64,000 bases of DNA from Armatimonadota bacterium (GTDB lineage Bacteria; Armatimonadota; Fimbriimonadia; Fimbriimonadales; Fimbriimonadaceae). A program made the translations under genes and the position numbers. Positions 45,810-56,980 of this stretch are shown here, piece after piece; the stretch's first letter is position 1, and each line of letters begins with the position of its first letter. The notes beneath the pieces were generated by a model. That model was given only the letters and a program-made list of their open reading frames with translations, made no database searches and was not told where the DNA came from. The DNA is taken from the NCBI GenBank assembly GCA_037138755.1, contig JBAXHT010000001.1, forward strand, positions 219,805 to 283,804. Direction: 5' to 3'.

Positions 45810-46401
45810 AGAGCATCTTATCGAGAGCATCCGCGTGAAGCAAGCGGTGACCGAAAGCTGTATTCCCTCTCTGTTAGCGGCGGCAGACTTGCTCTCCGAA
45901 GCATTCCAGCGAGGCAACAAGCTTCTCATTTGCGGAAATGGAGGAAGTGCTGCCGATGCACAGCACCTGGCGGCGGAATTCATTTCCACCCTCTCAACAT
46001 CTTTCCCACGAAAGGCACTGCCTGCAATTGCCCTGACAACAGACTCTTCGACGCTGACGTCACGCGCAAATGACTACGGTTTCGATGAAGTATTTTCGAG
46101 GCAGGTCGAGGCGTTCGGCCAGCCGGGGGACGTGCTTTTGTCCATTTCCACCAGTGGCGGCTCAAAGAACTGTGTCGCGGCCATGCAAGCGGCGCAGGTT
46201 GCGGGTGTGAAAAAAGTGGCACTCGTGGGCGGAAGCGGGGGCGTGATGGCTAAGCTCGCCGATGTCGCGATCATCGTCCCGAGCTCTCAGACGATGCATG
46301 TCCAAGAGTCACATCTGGCTCTGTATCACATTCTTTGCCACATCGTTGAACGGAAACTGAACCCTGAAATGGCGGCAGCAGAGGAACTCGCAAAGGTATG
46401 A
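45784..46401 (+). CDS. gmhA: Phosphoheptose isomerase
   Basis: A 205-aa SIS-domain enzyme that converts sedoheptulose-7-P to D-glycero-D-manno-heptose-7-P, the first step to ADP-heptose for LPS core. The motifs are LLICGNGGSAADAQHLAAEF (near residue 47), LTTDSSTLTSRANDYGFDEVF (in two blocks near 80 and 92), LLSISTSGGSKN (near 119), and VQESHLALYHILCHIVE (near 172) with the catalytic histidine and zinc-site residues. The ATG lies inside the 3' end of gmhB, and the stop overlaps the sugar transferase (ATGA). A second enzyme (HldE) must be elsewhere. Confidence 0.93.
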   Translation: MRNWEQVAKEHLIESIRVKQAVTESCIPSLLAAADLLSEAFQRGNKLLICGNGGSAADAQHLAAEFISTLSTSFPRKALPAIALTTDSSTLTSRANDYGFDEVFSRQVEAFGQPGDVLLSISTSGGSKNCVAAMQAAQVAGVKKVALVGGSGGVMAKLADVAIIVPSSQTMHVQESHLALYHILCHIVERKLNPEMAAAEELAKV

Positions 46402-47000
46402 AACGAGGCATTGATCTGGTGGGAGCGTTGATCGCACTCGCTATTTTTGGAATCCCGATGTTGATAGTGGCTCTTCTGATCAAGGTTGTCGACCCGGGCC
46501 CAGTCTTTTTCCGCCAAGCCCGCCTCGGCCTCAACGGCAAGCCTTTCCGCATCTTCAAGTTCCGCTCGATGAAGGTCAACGCTCCGACGATAAGAAACCC
46601 TGACGGATCGGCGTACACCAATGCTGACGATCCTAGGGTCACCAAATTCGGTAGCTTTCTCCGGACGACAAGTTTGGATGAGTTACCCCAATTCTTGAAC
46701 GTCGTTGCAGGAGACATGAGCCTAGTCGGTCCCCGCCCCGACGAAGTTTCTCAACTCGAGTTTTACACGGAAGCAGAAAAAGCAAAACTGCTGGTCAAGC
46801 CTGGGATCACTGGTCCTTGTCAGATCAGTGGAAGAAACCTAAACTCTTGGGAGGAGCGCAAGAGGATCGACTCCGAGTACGCCTTGCACCCTTCGTTAGT
46901 CACCGACCTCCGGATACTCCTACTCACGATTCCTCATGTCCTCCTTCGCAGAGGGGTTAACTCTACTGAGAAGGGCGTAGAGAATCAGCCGAATCGTTGA
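46398..47000 (+). CDS. Undecaprenyl-phosphate sugar phosphotransferase (bacterial sugar transferase)
   Basis: A 200-aa monotopic phosphoglycosyl transferase. The re-entrant hydrophobic helix spans residues about 5-30 (LVGALIALAIFGIPMLIVALLI). The signature blocks are PGPVFFRQARLGLNGKPF (near 33), FKFRSMKV (near 52), SLDELPQFLNVVAGDMSLVGPRP (in blocks near 94 and 107, including the Asp-Glu catalytic pair), and KPGITGPCQISGR (near 134). It starts assembly of a lipid-linked oligosaccharide by moving a sugar-1-phosphate to undecaprenyl phosphate. It overlaps gmhA by 4 bp, and the antisense formyltransferase gene overlaps its 3' end by 38 bp. Confidence 0.93.
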   Translation: MKRGIDLVGALIALAIFGIPMLIVALLIKVVDPGPVFFRQARLGLNGKPFRIFKFRSMKVNAPTIRNPDGSAYTNADDPRVTKFGSFLRTTSLDELPQFLNVVAGDMSLVGPRPDEVSQLEFYTEAEKAKLLVKPGITGPCQISGRNLNSWEERKRIDSEYALHPSLVTDLRILLLTIPHVLLRRGVNSTEKGVENQPNR

Positions 47001-47667
47001 CGACCGCCATCGGAGCTAACTCGATGCGATCAAGCTTTTCAAGTTTCAGACTATAGACGTAGCCCCTGTGTTCAAACGTGAGAGGATAGCGGTCTGGGTC
47101 CGACGCTCTCAAAAGATCAAAAATCTCCTCTAGCGACTTCGTTACTGAGACGCGGCTGTCTGCAGATGTCCGGCGGGGATAGTAGGATGACTCCACGGAA
47201 TCATCTTGACGAACCGGGTCTAAGCTGTCGAAGTTCTGCACAGCAAAATTCATGAGTTCGATCTCCGCTAAAAACAGTTTCTCGAAGATCTCCTCAAACG
47301 TCTCGTGACCTTCATTGAAGATGGTTTTCTGGTGGTAGATGTCGCCGGAATCAACCTTCGCCGCCGCGTCCATCATGGTTACCACAATTTCTGATTGCCC
47401 TTCGAGTATCTGCCAGTTCAAAGGAGCAAATCCCCGCCCCTTCGGAACGTCGGAAGCATGGATCACAAGCGTGTGAACATACATCGACTTCGTTGCCTCT
47501 CGAATCATCTCCTGGCAGCTGATCAAAAATAGCAAGTCTCCGCCACTCAACTCATTCTTGCTCGCCACGATTTCCACTTCGTGTTCGTTCAACTCCTCAG
47601 ACCAAAGCTTTAGGTGCGGCATCACCGGATGACCAGGATCAGAACACAACACAGATATTTTCAACAC
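46963..47667 (-). CDS. Formyltransferase-family protein (nucleotide sugar N-formyltransferase-like)
   Basis: A 234-aa protein from a TTG with GGAGG 5 nt upstream. It has the Formyl_trans_N Rossmann-like fold: KISVLCSDPGHP (residues 3-14), LVIHASDVPKGRGFAP (near 66) and the DSGDIYHQ segment (near 103) that carries the catalytic-type aspartate. The usual N-x-H motif reads V-I-H, so the first triad residue is replaced; variants like this occur in sugar-modifying relatives. It sits antisense inside the glycan locus, so it probably formylates an amino sugar made by the DegT-type aminotransferase. Methionyl-tRNA formyltransferase is excluded by length. Confidence 0.75.
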   Translation of the reverse strand: MLKISVLCSDPGHPVMPHLKLWSEELNEHEVEIVASKNELSGGDLLFLISCQEMIREATKSMYVHTLVIHASDVPKGRGFAPLNWQILEGQSEIVVTMMDAAAKVDSGDIYHQKTIFNEGHETFEEIFEKLFLAEIELMNFAVQNFDSLDPVRQDDSVESSYYPRRTSADSRVSVTKSLEEIFDLLRASDPDRYPLTFEHRGYVYSLKLEKLDRIELAPMAVVNDSADSLRPSQ

Positions 47668-47862
47668 ACCCTCCGAAAGCCCAAGATCAAAACTTGAACG
47701 CTCAGTTTATTCAACATTCTCGGCCAACTATCCGGCGAGATACAAATCAGGTATCCAGACGAGGTCGACTGGCATAGAAAATGCGACCTATCTCCTGAAG
47801 GGAACTCGCTCCAGATGGTCCCCGATAAACCACATCCCTGGCACAAACACTGTTGAAAAACT

Positions 47863-47881
47863 GATCTTGTATGCCAAGATC
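47863..47881 (+). promoter_or_regulatory. Inverted repeat 9 nt before the DegT-type gene
   Basis: GATCTTG and CAAGATC (7 bp) flank TATGC, just upstream of the ATG at 47891. It could be an operator or an mRNA hairpin. The 223-bp gap (47668-47890) otherwise shows only a possible TTGAAA -35-like hexamer at 47853-47858. Confidence 0.35.
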
Positions 47882-47890
47882 GTTAAGTAG

Positions 47891-49069
47891 ATGTCTGCAA
47901 ATCCGTTTGTTATCCGAGACGAGTTCATTCCTTTTTCTCCGCCTATGATTGAGGCGGATGACATCGCCGGAGTGGTCGACACTCTCAGTACAGATTGGAT
48001 TACAACCGGTCCAAAGACTCGACGCTTTCAGGAAGTCTTCTGCGAGACCTACGGCTCACGTGCTGCACTCGCCGTCAACTCGTGCACAGCAGGACTTCAC
48101 GTTGCCCTCGTCGTGCTCGGAGTAGGCCCCGGGGACGAAGTCATCACAGTCTCGCACACGTTCTGTGCGACGGCAAATGTGATCGAGCACGTTGGAGCAA
48201 AACCGGTATTGGTGGACATCGAACCGGAGACGATGAACATGGACCCGGTCGCCTTCGAGGCGGCGATCACGCCGCGAACTAAGGCCGTCATCCCCGTCCA
48301 CTATGCCGGACATGCTGCCGAAATGGATGAAATCAACGCAATCGCTAAGAAACATGGAATCCACGTGATTGAAGATGCCGCTCACCCAATTTCGGGCAAG
48401 TACAAGGGCTCCTTTGTCGGGTCGTCCGAAAATCCAACGTCGTTCAGCTTTTACGCCACAAAGAATCTCACCACCGCCGAAGGCGGAATGCTAACCGGAA
48501 CCCCGGAATTCATCGAAAAGGCGCGGGTGGTCCACCTTCATGGAATGAGCAAGGACGCTCTCAAGCGGTACGAGAAGGGCGGATCTTGGAAGTACGAAGT
48601 TGTTCTTCCTGGTTTCAAATACAACATGACCGATCTTCAAGCGGCACTGGGGCTGACCCAGCTTGCCAAGCTTGACCGATTCCAAGCTCGTCGCCGAGAA
48701 GTGGTCGCCCAATATACAAAGGCTCTGGGCGATCATCCGGCATTCACCGTGCCTGTCGAGAAGCCACATGTCGAATCATCCTGGCACCTCTACGTTCTTA
48801 GGTTGAACCTGGATCAGCTCACCATTGACCGGGATCAGTTCATTGACGAATTGAAGGAACGAAATGTGGGAACCTCGGTCCACTACATCTCAGTTCACCT
48901 TCACCCATTCTATGCTCAGAAGTACGGATTCGCGCCAGAATCGCTACCGGTCACCTGGGATACCTACAACCGAATCATCAGCCTTCCGCTCAATGTGAGA
49001 ATCACGGACGAGGAAGTTGCCTACGTGATCGAAGCGCTAAAGGATATTGCGGCAAAGTACACTCGATAG
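47891..49069 (+). CDS. DegT/DnrJ/EryC1-type PLP sugar aminotransferase
   Basis: A 392-aa fold-type I aminotransferase. The motifs are ALAVNSCTAGLHVALVVLG (near residue 57), AVIPVHYAGHAAEMDEI (near 134), VIEDAAHPISGKYKG (near 155) with the PLP-binding aspartate, and the Schiff-base lysine in SFYATKNLTTAEGGM (near 184). FKYNMTDLQAALG (near 241) and WHLYVLRL (near 298) are typical of the family that aminates keto nucleotide sugars such as UDP-4-keto sugars. Its product would be the natural substrate for the antisense formyltransferase. wecB follows directly. Confidence 0.92.
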   Translation: MSANPFVIRDEFIPFSPPMIEADDIAGVVDTLSTDWITTGPKTRRFQEVFCETYGSRAALAVNSCTAGLHVALVVLGVGPGDEVITVSHTFCATANVIEHVGAKPVLVDIEPETMNMDPVAFEAAITPRTKAVIPVHYAGHAAEMDEINAIAKKHGIHVIEDAAHPISGKYKGSFVGSSENPTSFSFYATKNLTTAEGGMLTGTPEFIEKARVVHLHGMSKDALKRYEKGGSWKYEVVLPGFKYNMTDLQAALGLTQLAKLDRFQARRREVVAQYTKALGDHPAFTVPVEKPHVESSWHLYVLRLNLDQLTIDRDQFIDELKERNVGTSVHYISVHLHPFYAQKYGFAPESLPVTWDTYNRIISLPLNVRITDEEVAYVIEALKDIAAKYTR

Positions 49070-50179
49070 GTGAGCAAACCAAGAGTTGTTCTTGTCGTTG
49101 GAACTCGACCGGACGCGATCAAAACGCTTCCGGTCGTTTTGGCGTTAAGGCAGGAGTCGTCGCTCGAAACTGTTTTGGTTTCGACTGGCCAGCACCGCGA
49201 GATGCTGCAGCAAGTTTTCGATACGTTTGGCGTCCAGCCAGACCGAGACTTGGGGCTGATGAAGCACGGCCAATCGCTTGGCGAACTAACCGGACGTATG
49301 TCGCTCGCTCTTGACGAGCTTTTCAAGGAGCTCAAGCCACAGTTTGTGATCGCTCAGGGGGACACGACGACCACGTTTGTCGCGGGCCTTTCGGCCTTCT
49401 ATAACCAAATTCCGTTTGGGCACGTTGAGGCGGGCCTCCGCACTCACAACGTTTTCGATCCATTCCCGGAAGAGTTTAATCGTCAGGCGGTTGGGCTGTT
49501 TGCGACTCATCACTACGCGCCGACCGAACTCTCGGCGTCCAACCTTCGTCGGGAACATGTCTCGGATGACAAGATCTTTGTGACTGGCAATACTGGCATC
49601 GACGCGGTTCTCATGGTTGCCGAGCGGGAGCCACAGACATGGTTCCCTGATCACGCAGGTCGAGTCATTCTGATGACGATGCATCGCCGCGAGAACTGGG
49701 GCGATCCGATGGCGGCATGCGCGAAGGCCGCACGACAGTTAGTCGACCAACACCCCGACACTCTCCTTGCCGTGCCTATGCACCGCAACCCGATTGTTCG
49801 CGAGGTCTTGGAACGCGAACTTGGTGGACACGACCGAATTCATCTCATTGAGCCACCTGAATACGCGCGGTTCACCAAACTGATTCAGCGAGCAAATTTG
49901 ATCCTGACGGATTCTGGTGGTGTCCAGGAGGAAGCACCGAGCTTTGGCATTCCCATTCTCGTGCTCCGCAACACCACCGAGCGTCCTGAAGGAGTTGATG
50001 CAGGCTGCGCCAAGCTCATCGGCACCGACCCTGAAGCTCTGCTGGCTCAGGGGACCCAGTTACTGAACGACTCGAAAAGCTATCAAAGCATGAGTCAGGT
50101 CAAGAGTCCATACGGCGAAGGAAGAGCGTCAGAACAAATTGTTGAGGCGGTGAAGACATATCTTCACCGCGGTTCATAG
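49070..50179 (+). CDS. wecB: UDP-N-acetylglucosamine 2-epimerase (non-hydrolysing)
   Basis: A 369-aa GT-B-fold enzyme starting at a GTG immediately after the previous stop. LVVGTRPDAIKTLPVV (near residue 7) carries the TRPD/E signature, followed by VSTGQHREMLQQVFDTFG (near 37), QGDTTTTFVAG (near 93), GHVEAGLRTHN (near 115), PFPEEFNRQ (near 128) and TDSGGVQEEAPSFGIP (near 281). The Asp in TRPD replaces the more usual Glu. It interconverts UDP-GlcNAc and UDP-ManNAc for surface glycans. It ends the glycan locus; a 455-bp structured non-coding region follows. Confidence 0.94.
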   Translation: MSKPRVVLVVGTRPDAIKTLPVVLALRQESSLETVLVSTGQHREMLQQVFDTFGVQPDRDLGLMKHGQSLGELTGRMSLALDELFKELKPQFVIAQGDTTTTFVAGLSAFYNQIPFGHVEAGLRTHNVFDPFPEEFNRQAVGLFATHHYAPTELSASNLRREHVSDDKIFVTGNTGIDAVLMVAEREPQTWFPDHAGRVILMTMHRRENWGDPMAACAKAARQLVDQHPDTLLAVPMHRNPIVREVLERELGGHDRIHLIEPPEYARFTKLIQRANLILTDSGGVQEEAPSFGIPILVLRNTTERPEGVDAGCAKLIGTDPEALLAQGTQLLNDSKSYQSMSQVKSPYGEGRASEQIVEAVKTYLHRGS

Positions 50180-50634
50180 TCGATCGGACTTGAGATTTCG
50201 ATAGTTTGTGACACGTCTTTGGGGGTGCGCCGCCGAAAAGATGTGTCATTTCCTGGTTCAAACGTGGCTTTCTGATCGAAATCGTGTGTCATTTCGGTGG
50301 TGAATTTTTCCTTGGCGGTGAGGTTTGGATACGAAAGGTGGGCTCTGGGCTGCGGGCTTTTCGTATCTATTTGAACCTGAAACGTTGTTTTGAGCCCGAT
50401 AGGTCGTGTCTTTCGGTGGGGAATTCTTCCGTTGGGCTTCGCATGTGGTCGTCTATTAGCTGAACAGTTCGGTGTGTGGAAAGCTGCTAAAGCCCTGATT
50501 GCATCGGAGGCACTCCAAAACTTGTTCATCACCTACTAGGCGATGAAATCGGGGCTTTGTCAACCTTATCAATTGATTCTCGTTGGATAATCCTCGCGAC
50601 TAGGCATTTTGTATAATGACTTTCGGGAGGTGTT
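50180..50634. other. Structured non-coding region with direct repeats and hairpins
   Basis: No convincing gene lies here. A roughly 56-bp imperfect direct repeat occurs twice (50261-50316 and 50381-50437, offset 120 bp). Between the copies is a hairpin with a perfect 9-bp stem (GATACGAAA at 50328-50336, TTTCGTATC at 50359-50367). A longer imperfect hairpin with 16 of 18 pairs follows (50489-50506 with 50541-50558, 34-nt loop). TATAAT at 50612-50617 and GGGAGG at 50625-50630 lead into the next gene. A minus-strand frame spans most of the region but looks like a chance ORF. Confidence 0.6.
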
Positions 50635-51102
50635 GTGACGGAGTTCAAACGAATCGGGAGCTTGGTTTGGCGTGGGCTGTTTGTCGCACTGAACGTCTAC
50701 TTCTTTGTCACTCGATTTGCTGATTTGGTAGCTCCTGATAATCGAGCCTCGTGGTCTTCCTTCAGTGTCAGTCGTTCCGTGCCCTATTGGCAAATTCTCA
50801 GCAGTCAGGCACTGACAGTTTTGCTGACTGGAATACTATTCTATTGCTGCGTTGAGCGCTATCGGTACGAGAAGATGCACGACCGGATCGAATTCATCGG
50901 AGTCCAATTTGCTTCGTTCAATTTGACGCACTGGATGTATGCCTACAAATCCCGAGTCGAAACCGGTGTTCCTGTCGCACGGATTGCTGAGAAGATGAAC
51001 ACGCAGTTCGGACTCAGTCTGTTCATGTTGGCCTTCTGCATCATTTTGGCCGTCGGCATTGAAGTCATTTTTCGCGAGAAGTCGGAGAGGCGGACGACTT
51101 GA
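50635..51102 (+). CDS. Small four-helix membrane protein (cassette gene 1)
   Basis: A 155-aa protein starting at a GTG 4 nt after a GGGAGG site, with TATAAT 17 nt upstream of the start. Hydrophobic segments lie at about residues 8-28 (LVWRGLFVALNVYFFV), 52-72 (ALTVLLTGILFYCC), 84-100 (weaker) and 122-145 (LFMLAFCIILAVGIEVIF). No family is recognised. It is the first of four overlapping genes of similar size and topology, and it lacks the ELxP N-terminal motif of the other three. The stop overlaps the TTG of the next gene. Confidence 0.75.
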   Translation: MTEFKRIGSLVWRGLFVALNVYFFVTRFADLVAPDNRASWSSFSVSRSVPYWQILSSQALTVLLTGILFYCCVERYRYEKMHDRIEFIGVQFASFNLTHWMYAYKSRVETGVPVARIAEKMNTQFGLSLFMLAFCIILAVGIEVIFREKSERRTT

Positions 51103-51575
51103 ATCTAACACATGAGCTCATTCCGAATGTTGAAGAGTTTCGAACTCGGAACCAGCCTCGGGCAGAGCATGCGGCAAGGCTGCTTATTGGCGGACTCGCC
51201 CTCAACCATTTTTCGATCTTCTGCTACTCGTTTTGGCTCATACGGAGTAAGGGGAAACCAGCTGGGGACCTTGCAGACGGTTACACTTGGATTGTGGGAT
51301 TCTGGGCCGTCGGATTGCTCGCGCTGATCGTGTGGGCTTGTTTCCGCAAAAGTGGTCGCTGGCACGTCAATCGCGTCGTCTGGCTGTGCCTGACGTCCTG
51401 TCTCTCTATCAATGCCTTCGTCTCTTGGCTCAAAGAGCACGGTATCGAGCGAGCATTTCCCCAGTGGCAGCGCTACTCAATCGTCACTACACTGCTACTA
51501 CTGACCGTCGTCGCAATCCCCCTTGAACTCACTTTCTTGGACGCGGCGAAACGGAAGATGGAGGAGACAGATTGA
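51099..51575 (+). CDS. Small four-helix membrane protein (cassette gene 2)
   Basis: A 158-aa protein from a TTG overlapping the previous TGA (TTGA). The N-terminus reads LTHELIPNVEEFRTRNQPR, then four hydrophobic segments: LLIGGLALNHFSIFCYSFWL (near 28), WIVGFWAVGLLALIVWACF (near 63), VVWLCLTSCLSINAFVSWL (near 92) and IVTTLLLLTVVAIPLELTF (near 126). The opening motif (ELxP ... R) matches the start of genes 3 and 4, suggesting paralogy by duplication. Function unknown. Confidence 0.75.
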   Translation: MNLTHELIPNVEEFRTRNQPRAEHAARLLIGGLALNHFSIFCYSFWLIRSKGKPAGDLADGYTWIVGFWAVGLLALIVWACFRKSGRWHVNRVVWLCLTSCLSINAFVSWLKEHGIERAFPQWQRYSIVTTLLLLTVVAIPLELTFLDAAKRKMEETD

Positions 51576-52054
51576 TCGACCCTCAAGCCGAACTAACTCC
51601 TGGACTTAGGGGATGGTATGACCATCGTCGGGCAGTGCTGGGGGAGATTGGGGTTTGGTTGCCGCTTGGGGTCTATGGAGCGGCGTGGGTTTACGCAGCA
51701 CCGAGGATGGTGGCGGAAACTTCGTTTCGGCAGGTCTTGGCGAATGCAGACCAGGCTGGTGTGATGCGCTTGCTACCGATTAGCGGGACGGTGCTCCACT
51801 TGGTCGGTATTGCTCTGGCTTTCGTCGCAGTGAGCTGGCGTAGCTTTCCTCGAATGGAACGGTTCCAGCAGACGGTGCGGGGCATCCTAATCTCGATCGC
51901 TGGATCGTTCTGCTACATCGAGTTCTCGGGTTCGAAGTTCGAAGGCACTTCAGGGGGGCTGTTCATGACCAAGGTCTACTTCGTGATGGGATTCGTCTTT
52001 TTGGGGCTCTGGATTTGGAAGTTCATCGATCTGAGGATGGAGCAGAAAGCGTGA
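51572..52054 (+). CDS. Small four-helix membrane protein (cassette gene 3)
   Basis: A 160-aa protein from a TTG overlapping the previous stop. It begins IDPQAELTPGLRGWYDHRR; the ELTPGLRxW block recurs in gene 4. The hydrophobic segments are about residues 22-42 (LGEIGVWLPLGVYGAAWVY), 67-88 (ISGTVLHLVGIALAFVAVSW), 103-118 and 131-150 (VYFVMGFVFLGLWIWKFI). No catalytic or transport signature. Function unknown. Confidence 0.75.
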   Translation: MIDPQAELTPGLRGWYDHRRAVLGEIGVWLPLGVYGAAWVYAAPRMVAETSFRQVLANADQAGVMRLLPISGTVLHLVGIALAFVAVSWRSFPRMERFQQTVRGILISIAGSFCYIEFSGSKFEGTSGGLFMTKVYFVMGFVFLGLWIWKFIDLRMEQKA

Positions 52055-52596
52055 TCGACTGGAATAGGGAGCTGACCCCGGGATTGCGTGAGTGGTTTCG
52101 TTTGCGGGGTCCTCATATCCGCACGGCTGCGACCTTGCTACTTTGGACGGTTCAGCTAATCATGCCCACACTGATCCTCGCAAACTTTTCGCAGGTTGGC
52201 TGGGGTGGGCTAGAGCGTGGCGCTGAGCATTCCCAAATCGAGGTTTGGGTTCCCGTCATCAGTGGATTGATCGGCTTAGGCGGAGTCGTTCTGCTGACGA
52301 CCTTTCTGCTTCAACAGCGAAGACGACTTCCCAGCCTAGCGCTCCTGATGACCATTTTCTTCATGATGGGAAATGAGAATTGTTTTAAGGTTCTTCACGA
52401 AGTCATATCCAAACAAGAGCCACCCATTCTTCCGTCTCAACCCTTCCACCTCTACGTTTGTTTAGTGTTAGGCATTTGTTCGGTCGGATTTTGCACTTGG
52501 GTCTGCTTGAACAAAGACTTTCGTGCAGACTTGGAACTTCAACTCGCTCGCAAGGACGCCAAAGAGGAGCCGCCAACTTCTCAATCAAAACTCTAG
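52051..52596 (+). CDS. Small four-helix membrane protein (cassette gene 4)
   Basis: The GTG at 52051 overlaps the previous TGA, giving 181 aa. It begins IDWNRELTPGLREWFRLRG, then AATLLLWTVQLIMPTLILA (near 27), VWVPVISGLIGLGGVVLLTTF (near 60), LALLMTIFFMMG (near 92) and LYVCLVLGICSVGFCTWVC (near 134), with a charged C-terminus. A longer frame starting at 52015 would overlap gene 3 by 40 bp and is unlikely. It is the last gene of the cassette; 226 bp to the next gene hold no other clear feature. Confidence 0.75.
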   Translation: MIDWNRELTPGLREWFRLRGPHIRTAATLLLWTVQLIMPTLILANFSQVGWGGLERGAEHSQIEVWVPVISGLIGLGGVVLLTTFLLQQRRRLPSLALLMTIFFMMGNENCFKVLHEVISKQEPPILPSQPFHLYVCLVLGICSVGFCTWVCLNKDFRADLELQLARKDAKEEPPTSQSKL

Positions 52597-52822
52597 CTGC
52601 CTTGGGCTGCCATCGCGGATATTCCGCGTCTGCTTCGCTTCGCTCCCAACGATCTTCTTGATCCATTTTGGAACCACGGCTCGCTAGCCAACTTGCTATC
52701 TTGAGGAGCTGTGACTCCGCTTGCTGACGAGTCAGGTTCTTTTCGTGCGCTTTTGGCGAAAAGGTGATGAGCGACATCCGAGTTATTGAGTCTATTCTAA
52801 GCTCGTGTGCCAGAATTGGCTC

Positions 52823-53095
52823 ATGCAGTTCATGGTCATCGAGCGGTTCGTCAACTCTGACCCGAGGCCAATTTATGCTCGTCTGATCGAGAAGGGCCGA
52901 ATGATGCCGGAGGGGCTTCTCTACATCAATAGCTGGATCAGCGAGGATTTCTCGACTTGCTGGCAAGTGATGGAGGCCGATGATCCGGCAAAGTTCGACG
53001 AGTGGACTCGAAACTGGGACGACCTGGTGGACTTTGAGATCGTGCCCGTGATGACCTCGGCCGAAGCAAAGTCTAGATCCGAAGCTGCTGGTTGA
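52823..53095 (+). CDS. DUF3303 domain protein
   Basis: A 90-aa protein from the ATG at 52823 (a GTG at 52805, with TATTCT 6 nt upstream, would add six residues). The whole length matches the DUF3303 pattern: FMVIERFVNSDPRPIYARL at the start, GRMMPEGLLYINSWI near 27, the cysteine in FSTCWQVMEADD near 45, and WDDLVDFEIVPV near 69. The family is small, cytoplasmic and of unknown function. The 3' end overlaps the convergent cupin gene by 23 bp. Confidence 0.85.
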   Translation: MQFMVIERFVNSDPRPIYARLIEKGRMMPEGLLYINSWISEDFSTCWQVMEADDPAKFDEWTRNWDDLVDFEIVPVMTSAEAKSRSEAAG

Positions 53096-53432
53096 CGGTG
53101 CGCTCCGAAACAACTTCCCCGGTGTGTTTGGTGGCCGCAGGCTCAAATAGCATCAGATGACACTCTTCGTTCGCAACTGGGCAGTGCTCGACTCCTCGCG
53201 GAACGATGATAAACTCGCCCGCTCTTACTGGAGTGTTCCGGTCCCGAAACTGCATTGTCATCTCCCCACGTACGACGAGGAACATCTCATCTTCATTCTC
53301 GTGAGAGTGCCAAACGAACTCACCGTGTAGTTTGACGAGCTTGACTATCTGTCCATTAAGTTCACCCACGATTCTAGGTGACCAGAAGTCATCAAACATT
53401 CCGAGCTTTTCAGCCAAGTTGACCGGTTGCAC
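53073..53432 (-). CDS. Cupin domain protein
   Basis: A 119-aa single-domain cupin from a GTG with AGGA 7 nt upstream. The first cupin motif is WHSHENEDEMFLVVRGEM (near residue 41), with two histidines and the glutamate that bind a metal. The second is PRGVEHCP (near 78), with the third histidine. Many such proteins bind Mn, Fe or Zn and act as isomerases or dioxygenases; no substrate can be assigned. It lies 23 bp after the GNAT gene, perhaps in the same unit as cdaA-cdaR. Confidence 0.87.
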   Translation of the reverse strand: MQPVNLAEKLGMFDDFWSPRIVGELNGQIVKLVKLHGEFVWHSHENEDEMFLVVRGEMTMQFRDRNTPVRAGEFIIVPRGVEHCPVANEECHLMLFEPAATKHTGEVVSERTVNQQLRI

Positions 53433-53455
53433 CCAACAATCCTACCTTCTGAACC

Positions 53456-54229
53456 TCAAAACTGATCAGTCATGAAGAACTGGGGTTGGCCGGGGACGTT
53501 GCGGCCCATGAGGTACATGGGGACGTTGACAGCGCCAAGCGGGACTTCGAGTTGGTCGGTCATGTAGGACGTCCCCATCCACTCGGTTCCGCGCGGAACC
53601 GGCCACTTTTTGAGGTTCGATGTATTCAGAACCTCCCGCACCGTCTCGTTTTCCAAGCTCAGGTAGCCGTCGCCGAAGGCCATCGAGTCGCGGTAGTTCC
53701 ACTGCCAGTATCGCCAGCGGCGTTCGTCGCGGCGGAGGCGGTCCGGGTGTTCGGCGGCCCAGGCGTCGTAGCGTTGGCGGATGTCCGAGAAATCGTACGT
53801 TGGCAGATCGACTTCTAATGGGAGCGACGTGATCGGGCCTCGGACGACTCTATCAAGTCCTTCGAACCCAAGTTGCTCGTAGAGGCGTAGGTCGGTGGCG
53901 AACAGCATCGCGGCGCCTTCACCGGCGCGTTCCGAGTCGCGCAAGACGCGCTCGATGAGACGCCGGCCGTAGCCCTCGTTGCGGCGATCAGGATGGGTGG
54001 CAACTCCGGCGATTCCGATGGCTTTACCCCAGCCGAATTCAAGTGGGGTTGTGGTGAGTACGGAGACGATCTCCTGGCCTTCGATGATCGCCCATTTGCG
54101 ATTGATGTCGAACATCGGTTCGGTAAAGAAGATATCGAGGGCAAGCTCGAAATCGAGCTCGAAGACCTTGCAGAGCAGGCTGAGAAACGCCTCGCCTTCG
54201 GATTCACGAATCGGTCGAATCTCAGTCAT
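53456..54229 (-). CDS. GNAT-family N-acetyltransferase, Eis-like N-terminal part
   Basis: A 257-aa protein. The acetyl-CoA-binding motif A is GVATHPDRRNEGYGRRLIERVL (in two blocks near residue 75 and 85), with VLTTTPLEFG (near 57) before it and AAMLFATDLRLYEQLGF (near 106) after it. The order and RxxxxGxG pattern match Eis-like GNATs, but Eis proteins are longer (about 400 aa), with a second GNAT-like and a sterol-carrier domain. Here only about 130 residues follow. It overlaps cdaR by 4 bp (ATGA). Substrate unknown. Confidence 0.85.
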   Translation of the reverse strand: MTEIRPIRESEGEAFLSLLCKVFELDFELALDIFFTEPMFDINRKWAIIEGQEIVSVLTTTPLEFGWGKAIGIAGVATHPDRRNEGYGRRLIERVLRDSERAGEGAAMLFATDLRLYEQLGFEGLDRVVRGPITSLPLEVDLPTYDFSDIRQRYDAWAAEHPDRLRRDERRWRYWQWNYRDSMAFGDGYLSLENETVREVLNTSNLKKWPVPRGTEWMGTSYMTDQLEVPLGAVNVPMYLMGRNVPGQPQFFMTDQF

Positions 54230-54939
54230 CGGGCAGGAATCACCAGAGGCTTTAGCTTAACGCGGACGCGCACAAGAAACGGGGCGAGAACCGCCTCTTC
54301 GCGGTAGTGGACGTCTTTATTCGAGCTGGATATCATCACTTTGGGCACGTTCTTTCCACTAAGGTCTACGGGCTTGGCGTCCAGTTCCGTCCCAGCAGCT
54401 GATGTTACTTCTTCGCTTAAATCGACATTGACCGCCACCGAAGCAGTCTTTTGCAGAGCATCCGAGGTTCCGGCAACATAGATTGATCGCGGAAAGGTGT
54501 CAATTGATTCTACGGAGACTCCGGGTGCCGCGAGTCGCCCAATTCGGTTGACGGTGATCGGAACTTCCTTAATCACCACCGGCTCGACCTTGATTCGGGC
54601 CGTAACGGTTGGGTTGACCAATAGATCGCGGACATTTGGCGGATAGACCACGACGGGATAGCTGCTGGTGCCTGGCCTCGCCTGCGACAGATCGACGTAG
54701 CCGGACACGTCGGAACCGAGCACGGTTCGGATTTGGGCGGTTGAACCGGCTACGGTTACGGAAACGTTTTCGGGCGAATCGGAGACCAAGAACTTTGTGT
54801 CGTCCAGGCTGACGGTCATGATCTTCACCGAAAGCGCCTGGGTGCGGGCGCGTACGGAGCGGGTGTTGAAGATATTAAGCCAAAGCAGCACACTGATGAG
54901 CAACGACATCAAGGCAAGTGGCACGTTCACCTTCTTCAT
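54226..54939 (-). CDS. cdaR: YbbR-domain protein, CdaA regulator
   Basis: A 237-aa protein with one N-terminal transmembrane helix (about residues 6-24, LALMSLLISVLLWLNIF) and extracytoplasmic YbbR repeats. Repeat one lies around 38-115 (VSVTVAGSTAQI), and repeat two around 118-210 (ITVNRIGRLAAPGVSVESI, IYVAGTSDALQKTASV). CdaR binds and modulates the membrane diadenylate cyclase CdaA. It overlaps cdaA by 4 bp and the GNAT gene by 4 bp. In Firmicutes glmM follows; here it does not. Confidence 0.9.
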   Translation of the reverse strand: MKKVNVPLALMSLLISVLLWLNIFNTRSVRARTQALSVKIMTVSLDDTKFLVSDSPENVSVTVAGSTAQIRTVLGSDVSGYVDLSQARPGTSSYPVVVYPPNVRDLLVNPTVTARIKVEPVVIKEVPITVNRIGRLAAPGVSVESIDTFPRSIYVAGTSDALQKTASVAVNVDLSEEVTSAAGTELDAKPVDLSGKNVPKVMISSSNKDVHYREEAVLAPFLVRVRVKLKPLVIPAR

Positions 54940-55793
54940 GCCGTTTCCTCCTCCTTTCTCTCTCGGTCGCGACGGCGTCGGCGCGGTTGAGCCTCGGGTT
55001 CCTCTTGCTCGACCGTGTTCTTGATTAAGAACTCGCGTAGCTCGGTGGTGGTCGCAAGGGTCGTAATTCTGCCTTCTTGGGCGACCGAGATCGTCCCGCG
55101 CTCTTCGCTGACCACAATGGAGATCACGTCGCTGCTCTCGGTGACCCCAACGGCGGCGCGGTGGCGCATGTGCATTCGGCGGTCGATCCGTTGGTTCTCG
55201 CTCAAAGGTAGGCGGCAGGCGGCAGCTAAAACGAGGTCTCCGCGAATGATGACAGCGCCGTCGTGCAACGGATTCTGGCCAAAGAAAATCGAGCCGAGGA
55301 TTGAGTTCGTGATCTTGGCGTTTAAGGTGACTCCGGTTGCCGCAATCTCGTCGAGCCGACTGCCGGTCTCAACCACCACGATTGCGCCCACCTTGTCTTT
55401 TGCCATCTCGGCAATCGCACCCACGATTTCTTCTACGGAGGCACGGTCAAGATTTTGTTCGTGCCCAACGTCCTTGACCGCATCGGCGAGAAAGCCGAAG
55501 CGGGTGAGCCCCTCCAGAGCCTGACGAAGCTCGGGCAAAAACAAGATGACAAGCGCGACAGGGCCCAAGAGTGTGGCTTTCTCAAGGATCCAATGAAGGG
55601 TTGTCAGACGGAGGGTGTCGCTGACCAGCAACACGACAGTGAAGACTAAGACGCCAAGGAGGATTCTCCAGCCGCGGGTGCCCCTTACGAGCATGAGAAT
55701 GCGGTAGATCAGGAATGCCACAATCAGCACGTCAACCACTGCGACCGCCAAGTCCCGCGTTGACATCTCCTTGAGGCTCTGAATTAATTCCAC
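54936..55793 (-). CDS. cdaA: Membrane diadenylate cyclase
   Basis: A 285-aa protein starting at a GTG. Three N-terminal helices lie within residues about 15-95 (VVDVLIVAFLIYRILML, ILLGVLVFTVVLLVSDTL, ATLLGPVALVILFLP). The DAC domain (about 115-270) contains FFGQNPLHDGAVIIRGD with the DGA catalytic motif (near 176) and MRHRAAVGVTESSD with the RHR motif (near 208). It makes c-di-AMP from two ATP; c-di-AMP controls cell-wall and potassium homeostasis. TAGAAT lies 15 nt upstream of the start. Divergent from pheA. Confidence 0.94.
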   Translation of the reverse strand: MELIQSLKEMSTRDLAVAVVDVLIVAFLIYRILMLVRGTRGWRILLGVLVFTVVLLVSDTLRLTTLHWILEKATLLGPVALVILFLPELRQALEGLTRFGFLADAVKDVGHEQNLDRASVEEIVGAIAEMAKDKVGAIVVVETGSRLDEIAATGVTLNAKITNSILGSIFFGQNPLHDGAVIIRGDLVLAAACRLPLSENQRIDRRMHMRHRAAVGVTESSDVISIVVSEERGTISVAQEGRITTLATTTELREFLIKNTVEQEEPEAQPRRRRRDRERKEEETA

Positions 55794-55834
55794 CGTCGAC
55801 TGCCAATGATTCTATCTGGAAAAGCCGGTTGAGG

Positions 55835-55864
55835 TTGCGGCTTTCCCTCGGACATTTCTATAAT
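55835..55864 (+). promoter_or_regulatory. pheA promoter, near-leaderless
   Basis: TTGCGG (55835-55840), an 18-bp spacer and the consensus TATAAT (55859-55864), then 9 nt to the ATG at 55874. The expected transcription start is 2-3 nt before the ATG, and there is no Shine-Dalgarno site. Confidence 0.6.
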
Positions 55865-55873
55865 GTTAGGTTC

Positions 55874-56980
55874 ATGGCGCATCTTCCGCACGGCGATAAC
55901 TCTGATCCGCGACCTTTGGATCAAATCCGCGCGGATATCGACGCGGTTGATGCCGAGTTGGTGCGGTTACTTTCGCGGCGTACGGAGCTTGCGACCGAGG
56001 TCGGGGCGATCAAGCGGATTGATGGGAAGCCGTTCTTCACTCCTGAGCGCGAGCGGGCGGTTTATGAGAAGCTCTCGGCGATCAATCCGGGGCCATTGTT
56101 GCCGAAGCAGTTGAAGGCGATCTATCGTGAGATTATCTCGGCGGCGATCGCGGCGGAGAAGCCGATGTCGATCGCGTACTGGGGCCCTCCGGGGACGTTT
56201 ACAAACATGGCTGCTTTGCAGACGTTCGGTTCGAGTGCGGCGATGGTGGCGCAGGATTCGATCTCGGATGTGTTTCTTGCCGTCGAGAATGGGAAAGCCG
56301 ATTATGGTGTGGTACCGGTTGAGAACTCTGTAGCTGGTGTCGTGCCCGAGACTCTGGATATGTTTCCGCAGACGAACGTGAAAATTTGTGCAGAGACATA
56401 CGTGCCGATCCACCATATCCTGGTTTCGACCGCTTCTTCTTTAGATCAGATTGAGCGGGTTTTTGCTGGTCCCCAGCCTGCAACGCAGTGCAAACGGTGG
56501 CTCAAGATGAACCTGCCTTCGGCGGAGATTATCGAAGTCGTTCCGACCGCAAAGGCTGCTCAACGGGCTCTAGAAGACCCTCGTTCGGCGGCAATTTCGA
56601 ACGCACTCGGGGCCGAGACGGTCGGTATTCCGATCCTCGAAGAGCACATTGCCGACAACCCGACCAACCGAACTCGGTTTTTGGTCATCGGCTACAACGA
56701 GCCGATGAAGACGGGACGTGACAAGACGAGTGTGATGTTCAACCTTCGCAACCGTCCAGGTGAGCTGTATCGCGCGTTGGAGACGTTTTATGAGCAGGGC
56801 GTCAACCTCATGATGATCGAGTCACGTCCGGCGCCCCGGGCGTCATTTGAGTACATCTTCTACGCCGACTGCGCCGGTCACCGGACGGACGAGCACTTTG
56901 TGGCTGCGATTCATCGGCTGAGGAGTTTGGCGCTGGAGACGACTGTGCTAGGCAGCTATCCGTTGGCGGATAGTCAGTGA
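55874..56980 (+). CDS. pheA: Bifunctional chorismate mutase / prephenate dehydratase
   Basis: The ATG at 55874 gives 368 aa; a longer frame to 55829 would run through the promoter. The AroQ chorismate mutase domain covers about residues 10-95 (LDQIRADIDAVDAELVRLLSRR in blocks, KRIDGKPFFTPERE). Prephenate dehydratase covers about 98-275 (IAYWGPPGTFTNMAALQTFG, GVVPVENSVAGVVPETLD, NRTRFLVIG with the Thr-Arg-Phe motif near 270). The ACT regulatory domain (about 285-365) contains RPGELYRALETFYEQGVN and ESRPAP, which bind phenylalanine for feedback inhibition. It makes phenylpyruvate. Confidence 0.94.
   Translation: MAHLPHGDNSDPRPLDQIRADIDAVDAELVRLLSRRTELATEVGAIKRIDGKPFFTPERERAVYEKLSAINPGPLLPKQLKAIYREIISAAIAAEKPMSIAYWGPPGTFTNMAALQTFGSSAAMVAQDSISDVFLAVENGKADYGVVPVENSVAGVVPETLDMFPQTNVKICAETYVPIHHILVSTASSLDQIERVFAGPQPATQCKRWLKMNLPSAEIIEVVPTAKAAQRALEDPRSAAISNALGAETVGIPILEEHIADNPTNRTRFLVIGYNEPMKTGRDKTSVMFNLRNRPGELYRALETFYEQGVNLMMIESRPAPRASFEYIFYADCAGHRTDEHFVAAIHRLRSLALETTVLGSYPLADSQ

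Follow-up and report, generated by a model that had tools for sequence, protein, structure and literature searches.

A block of four overlapping genes, designated g1 to g4 and encoding small membrane proteins, lies in the genome of an Armatimonadota bacterium and is tentatively read here as a lineage-specific accessory operon at a variable intergenic spot, which probably encodes a hetero-oligomeric inner-membrane assembly (probability about 0.45). The operon is real, orphan and mildly unusual in its tidy four-gene packing and its duplicated N-terminus, and it is better described as a modest accessory operon than as a recognised or new system. The window, that is, the whole stretch of 64,000 nucleotides that was analysed, corresponds to C1:219805-283804 of a 3.27-Mb draft genome.

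Results

Layout and coding status of the four genes

In agreement with the earlier note on this DNA, four consecutive same-strand frames of 155 to 181 aa were found at 50635-52596, and all three joints between them are 4-nt start/stop overlaps (TTGA, TTGA, and GTGA) (Table 1). Each gene starts with GTG or TTG. For g4, an in-frame TTG at 52015 offers an alternative start that would add 12 residues, and the GTG is favoured because MID is common to the N-termini of g3 and g4. About four membrane helices had been claimed for each protein; hydropathy bore this out for g2, g3, and g4, with four segments each, and gave three clear segments for g1 plus a weak candidate for a fourth at about residues 85 to 101 (read by eye). 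Arg/Lys clusters, as read from the sequences, are present in g1-g4 at the N-terminus, in the loop that joins segment 2 to segment 3, and in the C-tail. This placement of positive residues suggests that both ends of the four proteins are cytoplasmic (N-in/C-in).

Table 1. Features of the four-gene block, the adjoining repeat and the ribonuclease/barstar neighbourhood (positions without a prefix are those of the window)
Feature	Position	Strand	Remarks
g1	50635..51102	+	GTG start; 155 aa; membrane protein; N-terminal motif absent
g2	51099..51575	+	TTG start within TTGA overlap; 158 aa; four membrane segments; N-terminus HELIPNVEEF
g3	51572..52054	+	TTG start within TTGA overlap; 160 aa; four membrane segments; N-terminus MIDPQAELTPGLRGWY
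g4	52051..52596	+	GTG start within GTGA overlap; 181 aa; four membrane segments; N-terminus MIDWNRELTPGLREWF
Shared N-terminal motif, copy 1 (g3)	51572..51619	+	
Shared N-terminal motif, copy 2 (g4)	52051..52098	+	
Multicopy intergenic repeat	50206..50594 (wider bounds C1:269984-270438)	+	directly upstream of g1; a neighbour, with only putative functional membership
Other repeat copies	C1:303015-303473, C1:431550-431983, C1:1206231-1206338		plus about 15 shorter matches
Ribonuclease + barstar pair, own genome	L087:4021-5444	-	
Ribonuclease + barstar pair, G017	L081:5845-7242		
Ribonuclease + barstar pair	L082:4635-5584		
Small membrane protein before ribonuclease, own genome	L087:5444-5941	-	165 aa
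Small membrane protein before ribonuclease, G017	L081:5372-5848		158 aa

Clear ribosome-binding sequences were seen 5' of g1 (CGGGAGGTGTTGTG, with CGGGAGG at the usual distance) and 5' of g3 (GGAGGAGACAGATTG, with GGAGGA at the usual distance); the purine stretches at the starts of g2 and g4 are weaker than these. Codon scores were trained on the 44 other genes of the window (training mean, 0.155) and compared over six frames. The frames of g1, g2, and g3 ranked top of the six, and g4 reached 0.058, with one antisense frame slightly above it at 0.076; thus, the status of g4 as a gene relies on the motif, the overlap and the hydrophobicity. All four scores (0.058 to 0.133) lay under the mean for window genes, and the GC content was ordinary (0.50 to 0.56, versus 0.54 for the window). 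The overlaps, together with the motif of g3 and g4 and the ribosome-binding sequences, led us to accept all four frames as genes.

Two of the four genes share an N-terminus

Genes 2 to 4 had been taken for tandem duplicates. We compared N-termini over a 14-residue window, with 946 N-terminus pairs from other genes of the window as the background. The g3/g4 pair scored 50, and no background pair exceeded 32, whereas g2/g4 scored only 18, a marginal value equalled by 21 of the 946 background pairs, and g2/g3 scored 13 (equalled by 79 of the 946). The claim is therefore supported only for g3 and g4. The N-terminus of g1 was no better than this background against any of the other three. The pattern common to g3 and g4, MID...ELTPGLR.W[YF], has ten identities besides the starting M (I, D, E, L, T, P, G, L, R, and W), and six of them (E, L, T, P, L, and R) are written with differing codons; thus, the likeness is at the protein level and is not a result of recent DNA copying.

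Genes 2 to 4 do not align significantly beyond the motif, an outcome that the note had named as refuting its reading. Significance was judged by shuffling membrane segments and loops separately, and no pair of g2, g3, and g4 reached P 0.05 once the first 20 residues had been removed; nor was any similarity of g2 to g4 detected under such shuffles. From their N-terminal 16 residues, g3 and g4 are likely duplicates. A relation of g1 and g2 to that pair has no significant support in these comparisons, which counts against the operon and assembly reading. Among 85 genomes of the family, the strict motif pattern occurred solely at the g3 and g4 sites, and no record of it was found in a genome collection of 85,000 species or among viral contigs. 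A relaxed motif matched 13 times in the own genome, versus 14 times for the reversed control pattern; four of its sites (L109, L114, L115, and L117) were inspected and rejected, since they are not N-termini of membrane proteins.

The four proteins are orphans

The earlier note recognised no family, and profile, genome and PDB searches agree with it. None of the four proteins reached a curated cut-off in Pfam or NCBIfam, matched PADLOC or PHROG at an E value of at most 0.001, or had a relative among PDB sequences. At E 0.01, a fused g1-g4 query recovered only the own genome among the 291 of the phylum, 19 of which are congeners. With g1-g4 in one genome only, a gene order shared between species, the check that the note had suggested, provides no evidence for a complex or an undescribed system. 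When g3 was searched in the 85 family genomes, it found itself and one weak match (E 0.008), which was rejected because it overlaps unrelated frames. Searches with g1, g2, and g4 in 61 relatives gave nothing convincing; the best-looking N-terminal match (g4 to L009, E 0.07) falls within a 728-aa peptidase gene, out of phase with it, and was discarded. Other weak genome matches (L002, L018, L037, and L102) were likewise rejected, being either implausible as genes or placed over unrelated genes in a different frame. In scans whose reach is limited to close relatives, g4 found nothing in plasmids and the genome collection, and g3 found nothing in phages and viral contigs. Single-sequence AlphaFold models of g3 (long helices; mean pLDDT, 58.8) and g4 (58.3) were nearly all helix; Foldseek comparison of these poor models (pLDDT 58 to 59) with the PDB gave no match at E 0.001. 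Judged by the sequence searches, g1-g4 are orphans.

The block is absent from the matching site in two relatives

In G017, a sister genome (96% over the neighbouring acetyltransferase), a barstar side ends at position 99225, within C34:89135-117095, and a DUF3303 side starts at 99303, so that the two are 78 bp apart with no block between them. The counterparts of this junction in the own genome are C1:303533, where a stretch with barstar, ribonuclease, acyl-CoA dehydrogenase and glyS starts, and C1:272598, where a stretch with DUF3303, the acetyltransferase and onward starts. The block is also absent from G023 (C37), in which 2.7 kb separate the barstar stretch from that of the acetyltransferase (C1:273259 in the own genome) and contain a protease-like gene and a HEAT-repeat gene. 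Thus, an old neighbourhood that is joined in G017 is split in the own genome, with g1-g4 at one of the two broken ends. The rearrangement spans 33 kb (C1:269984-303473) and has inverted copies of a repeat at both ends, one before g1 and one beside barstar. An inversion between the two repeats would explain this simply, since reversing it would bring g1-g4 and their repeat to the site that separates barstar from DUF3303; its direction is inferred. The block may have been gained in the own genome or lost in both sisters. Separately, a shortened relic of the G023 HEAT-repeat gene may survive at positions 52574-52777 of the window (minus strand), where the start and the end of that gene each have a weak match (E 0.044 and 0.10), oriented as would be expected.

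The repeat is about 400 nt long, and a blastn search of the own genome gave 27 matches to it, the query among them. Its conserved 3' module consists of a near-palindrome, CATCACCTACTAGGCGATG, followed by TTTGTCAACCT. The inverted copy at C1:303015-303473 is 81% identical to the one before g1 over 244 columns. Copies sit in varied, unrelated intergenic contexts, some of them convergent, and an Rfam scan of 46000-56000 found no family; on these two grounds, a function as a shared promoter or riboswitch was set aside. The repeat may be a REP-like family. Y1-type transposases accompany REP elements, and a gene for one (L048:601-1104, minus strand; PF01797, E 1.9e-7) was found about 400 bp from one repeat copy, the copy being upstream; this transposase is a plausible source of the repeat.

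A ribonuclease (PF00545) with a hydrophobic N-terminus is followed by barstar (PF01337) in three related genomes. A related protein of 191/203 aa that belongs to no Pfam family precedes the ribonuclease in the own genome and in G017. The two small membrane proteins encoded before the ribonuclease (Table 1) had no detectable similarity to each other and no convincing relatives in the 85 family genomes; a match to the 165-aa protein (L105) was rejected because it spans the start of a purA-like gene on the opposite strand. This slot looks variable. The ribonuclease/barstar neighbourhood offers no functional link to g1-g4.

Discussion

According to the accessory-operon reading, the operon would once have stood beside the ribonuclease/barstar pair and would later have been moved by rearrangement between intergenic repeat copies. 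Its products would be four small inner-membrane proteins. The start codons of g2 to g4 overlap the stops before them, so that translation is probably coupled and would yield similar amounts of the four. The simplest purpose of such coupled production, together with the similar layout of the proteins, would be a hetero-oligomeric membrane assembly. The ELTPGLR.W segment of g3 and g4 would be cytoplasmic and likely starts a helix just before the first membrane helix. It probably stems from one ancestor and was kept at the protein level, and we therefore infer contact with a common partner or a neighbouring subunit. That no homologue was found counts against the operon and assembly reading, as do the low codon scores, and overlapping genes need not encode a complex.

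Alternatively, the locus could simply be four small orphan membrane proteins in one hot-spot operon that form no complex, with only g3 and g4 as duplicates. The lack of a significant relation of g1 and g2 to g3/g4 speaks for this, and so do the different orphan membrane proteins in the slot before the ribonuclease (165 aa in the own genome, 158 aa in G017); since these single orphans differ, such genes appear to be gained and lost singly here. However, three successive 4-nt overlaps and the very similar size and layout favour joint production, and we regard independent orphans as a possible, if somewhat unlikely, explanation. A bolder version of the assembly, in which a novel machine peculiar to the lineage has subunits that share ELTPGLR.W as a cytoplasmic docking segment and came as one cassette into a ribonuclease/barstar hot spot, is very unlikely. 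That the frames are spurious or decaying would fit the absence of conservation and the below-average codon scores, yet it is barely credible for four long frames that overlap by 4 nt, with ribosome-binding sequences and with a motif that two of the genes retain despite synonymous change.

All four proteins could also be fast-diverging paralogues of one old four-helix family that includes the 158-aa protein of G017, with similarity eroded. Layout and size are the same, segments 2 to 4 of g4 align in register with the G017 protein and share an MGN.N stretch (score 52, P ~0.01), and g3 and g1 also gave weak scores against it. However, no weak score survives correction for the roughly 15 pairs tested several ways, a common composition is a property of four-helix proteins in general, and g1-g4 were not recovered when the G017 protein was searched against genomes, so we consider such a family quite improbable. 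There is only a very slight chance that g1-g4 belong in disguise to a family already described, for example DUF2157 (PF09925). The best library score of all four proteins was indeed that of g3 to this family (E 0.0012), but its 19.0 bits are below the Pfam gathering cut-off of 32.4, the match is partial (residues 50 to 135), g1, g2, and g4 have no match at all, NCBIfam gave none, and there was no fold match, with models too poor to be decisive.

The accessory operon, as we prefer to read it, offers a clear case of an orphan operon with a comparable site, since it is absent at the matching junction in two close relatives, and it adjoins a multicopy repeat, copies of which also mark a rearrangement. 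Should the four proteins prove to assemble, they would be a case of a multi-subunit membrane complex without detectable relatives in its phylum. The present contribution is undescribed proteins and no mechanism.

Comparison with known proteins and genes

DUF2157, a predicted membrane protein, resembles the block through the score of g3 only, and that score is under the cut-off. The 158-aa membrane protein of G017, itself an orphan without a Pfam match, is like g1-g4 in size and hydrophobic layout, is weakly similar, in register, to g4 and g3, and is encoded about 1.5 kb from the matching site, before the ribonuclease/barstar pair; it differs in being the product of a single gene, in lacking the ELTPGLR.W motif, and in that its similarity is not significant after multiple testing. 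Closest in kind are the orphan (taxonomically restricted) genes of bacteria: g1-g4 likewise occur in one genome, belong to no family and are absent from the matching site of relatives. The kind is thus already known, namely, orphan accessory genes, while the protein families themselves are undescribed. The usual orphan is a single short gene, and four long overlapping genes for membrane proteins with a duplicated pair among them make a tidier arrangement.
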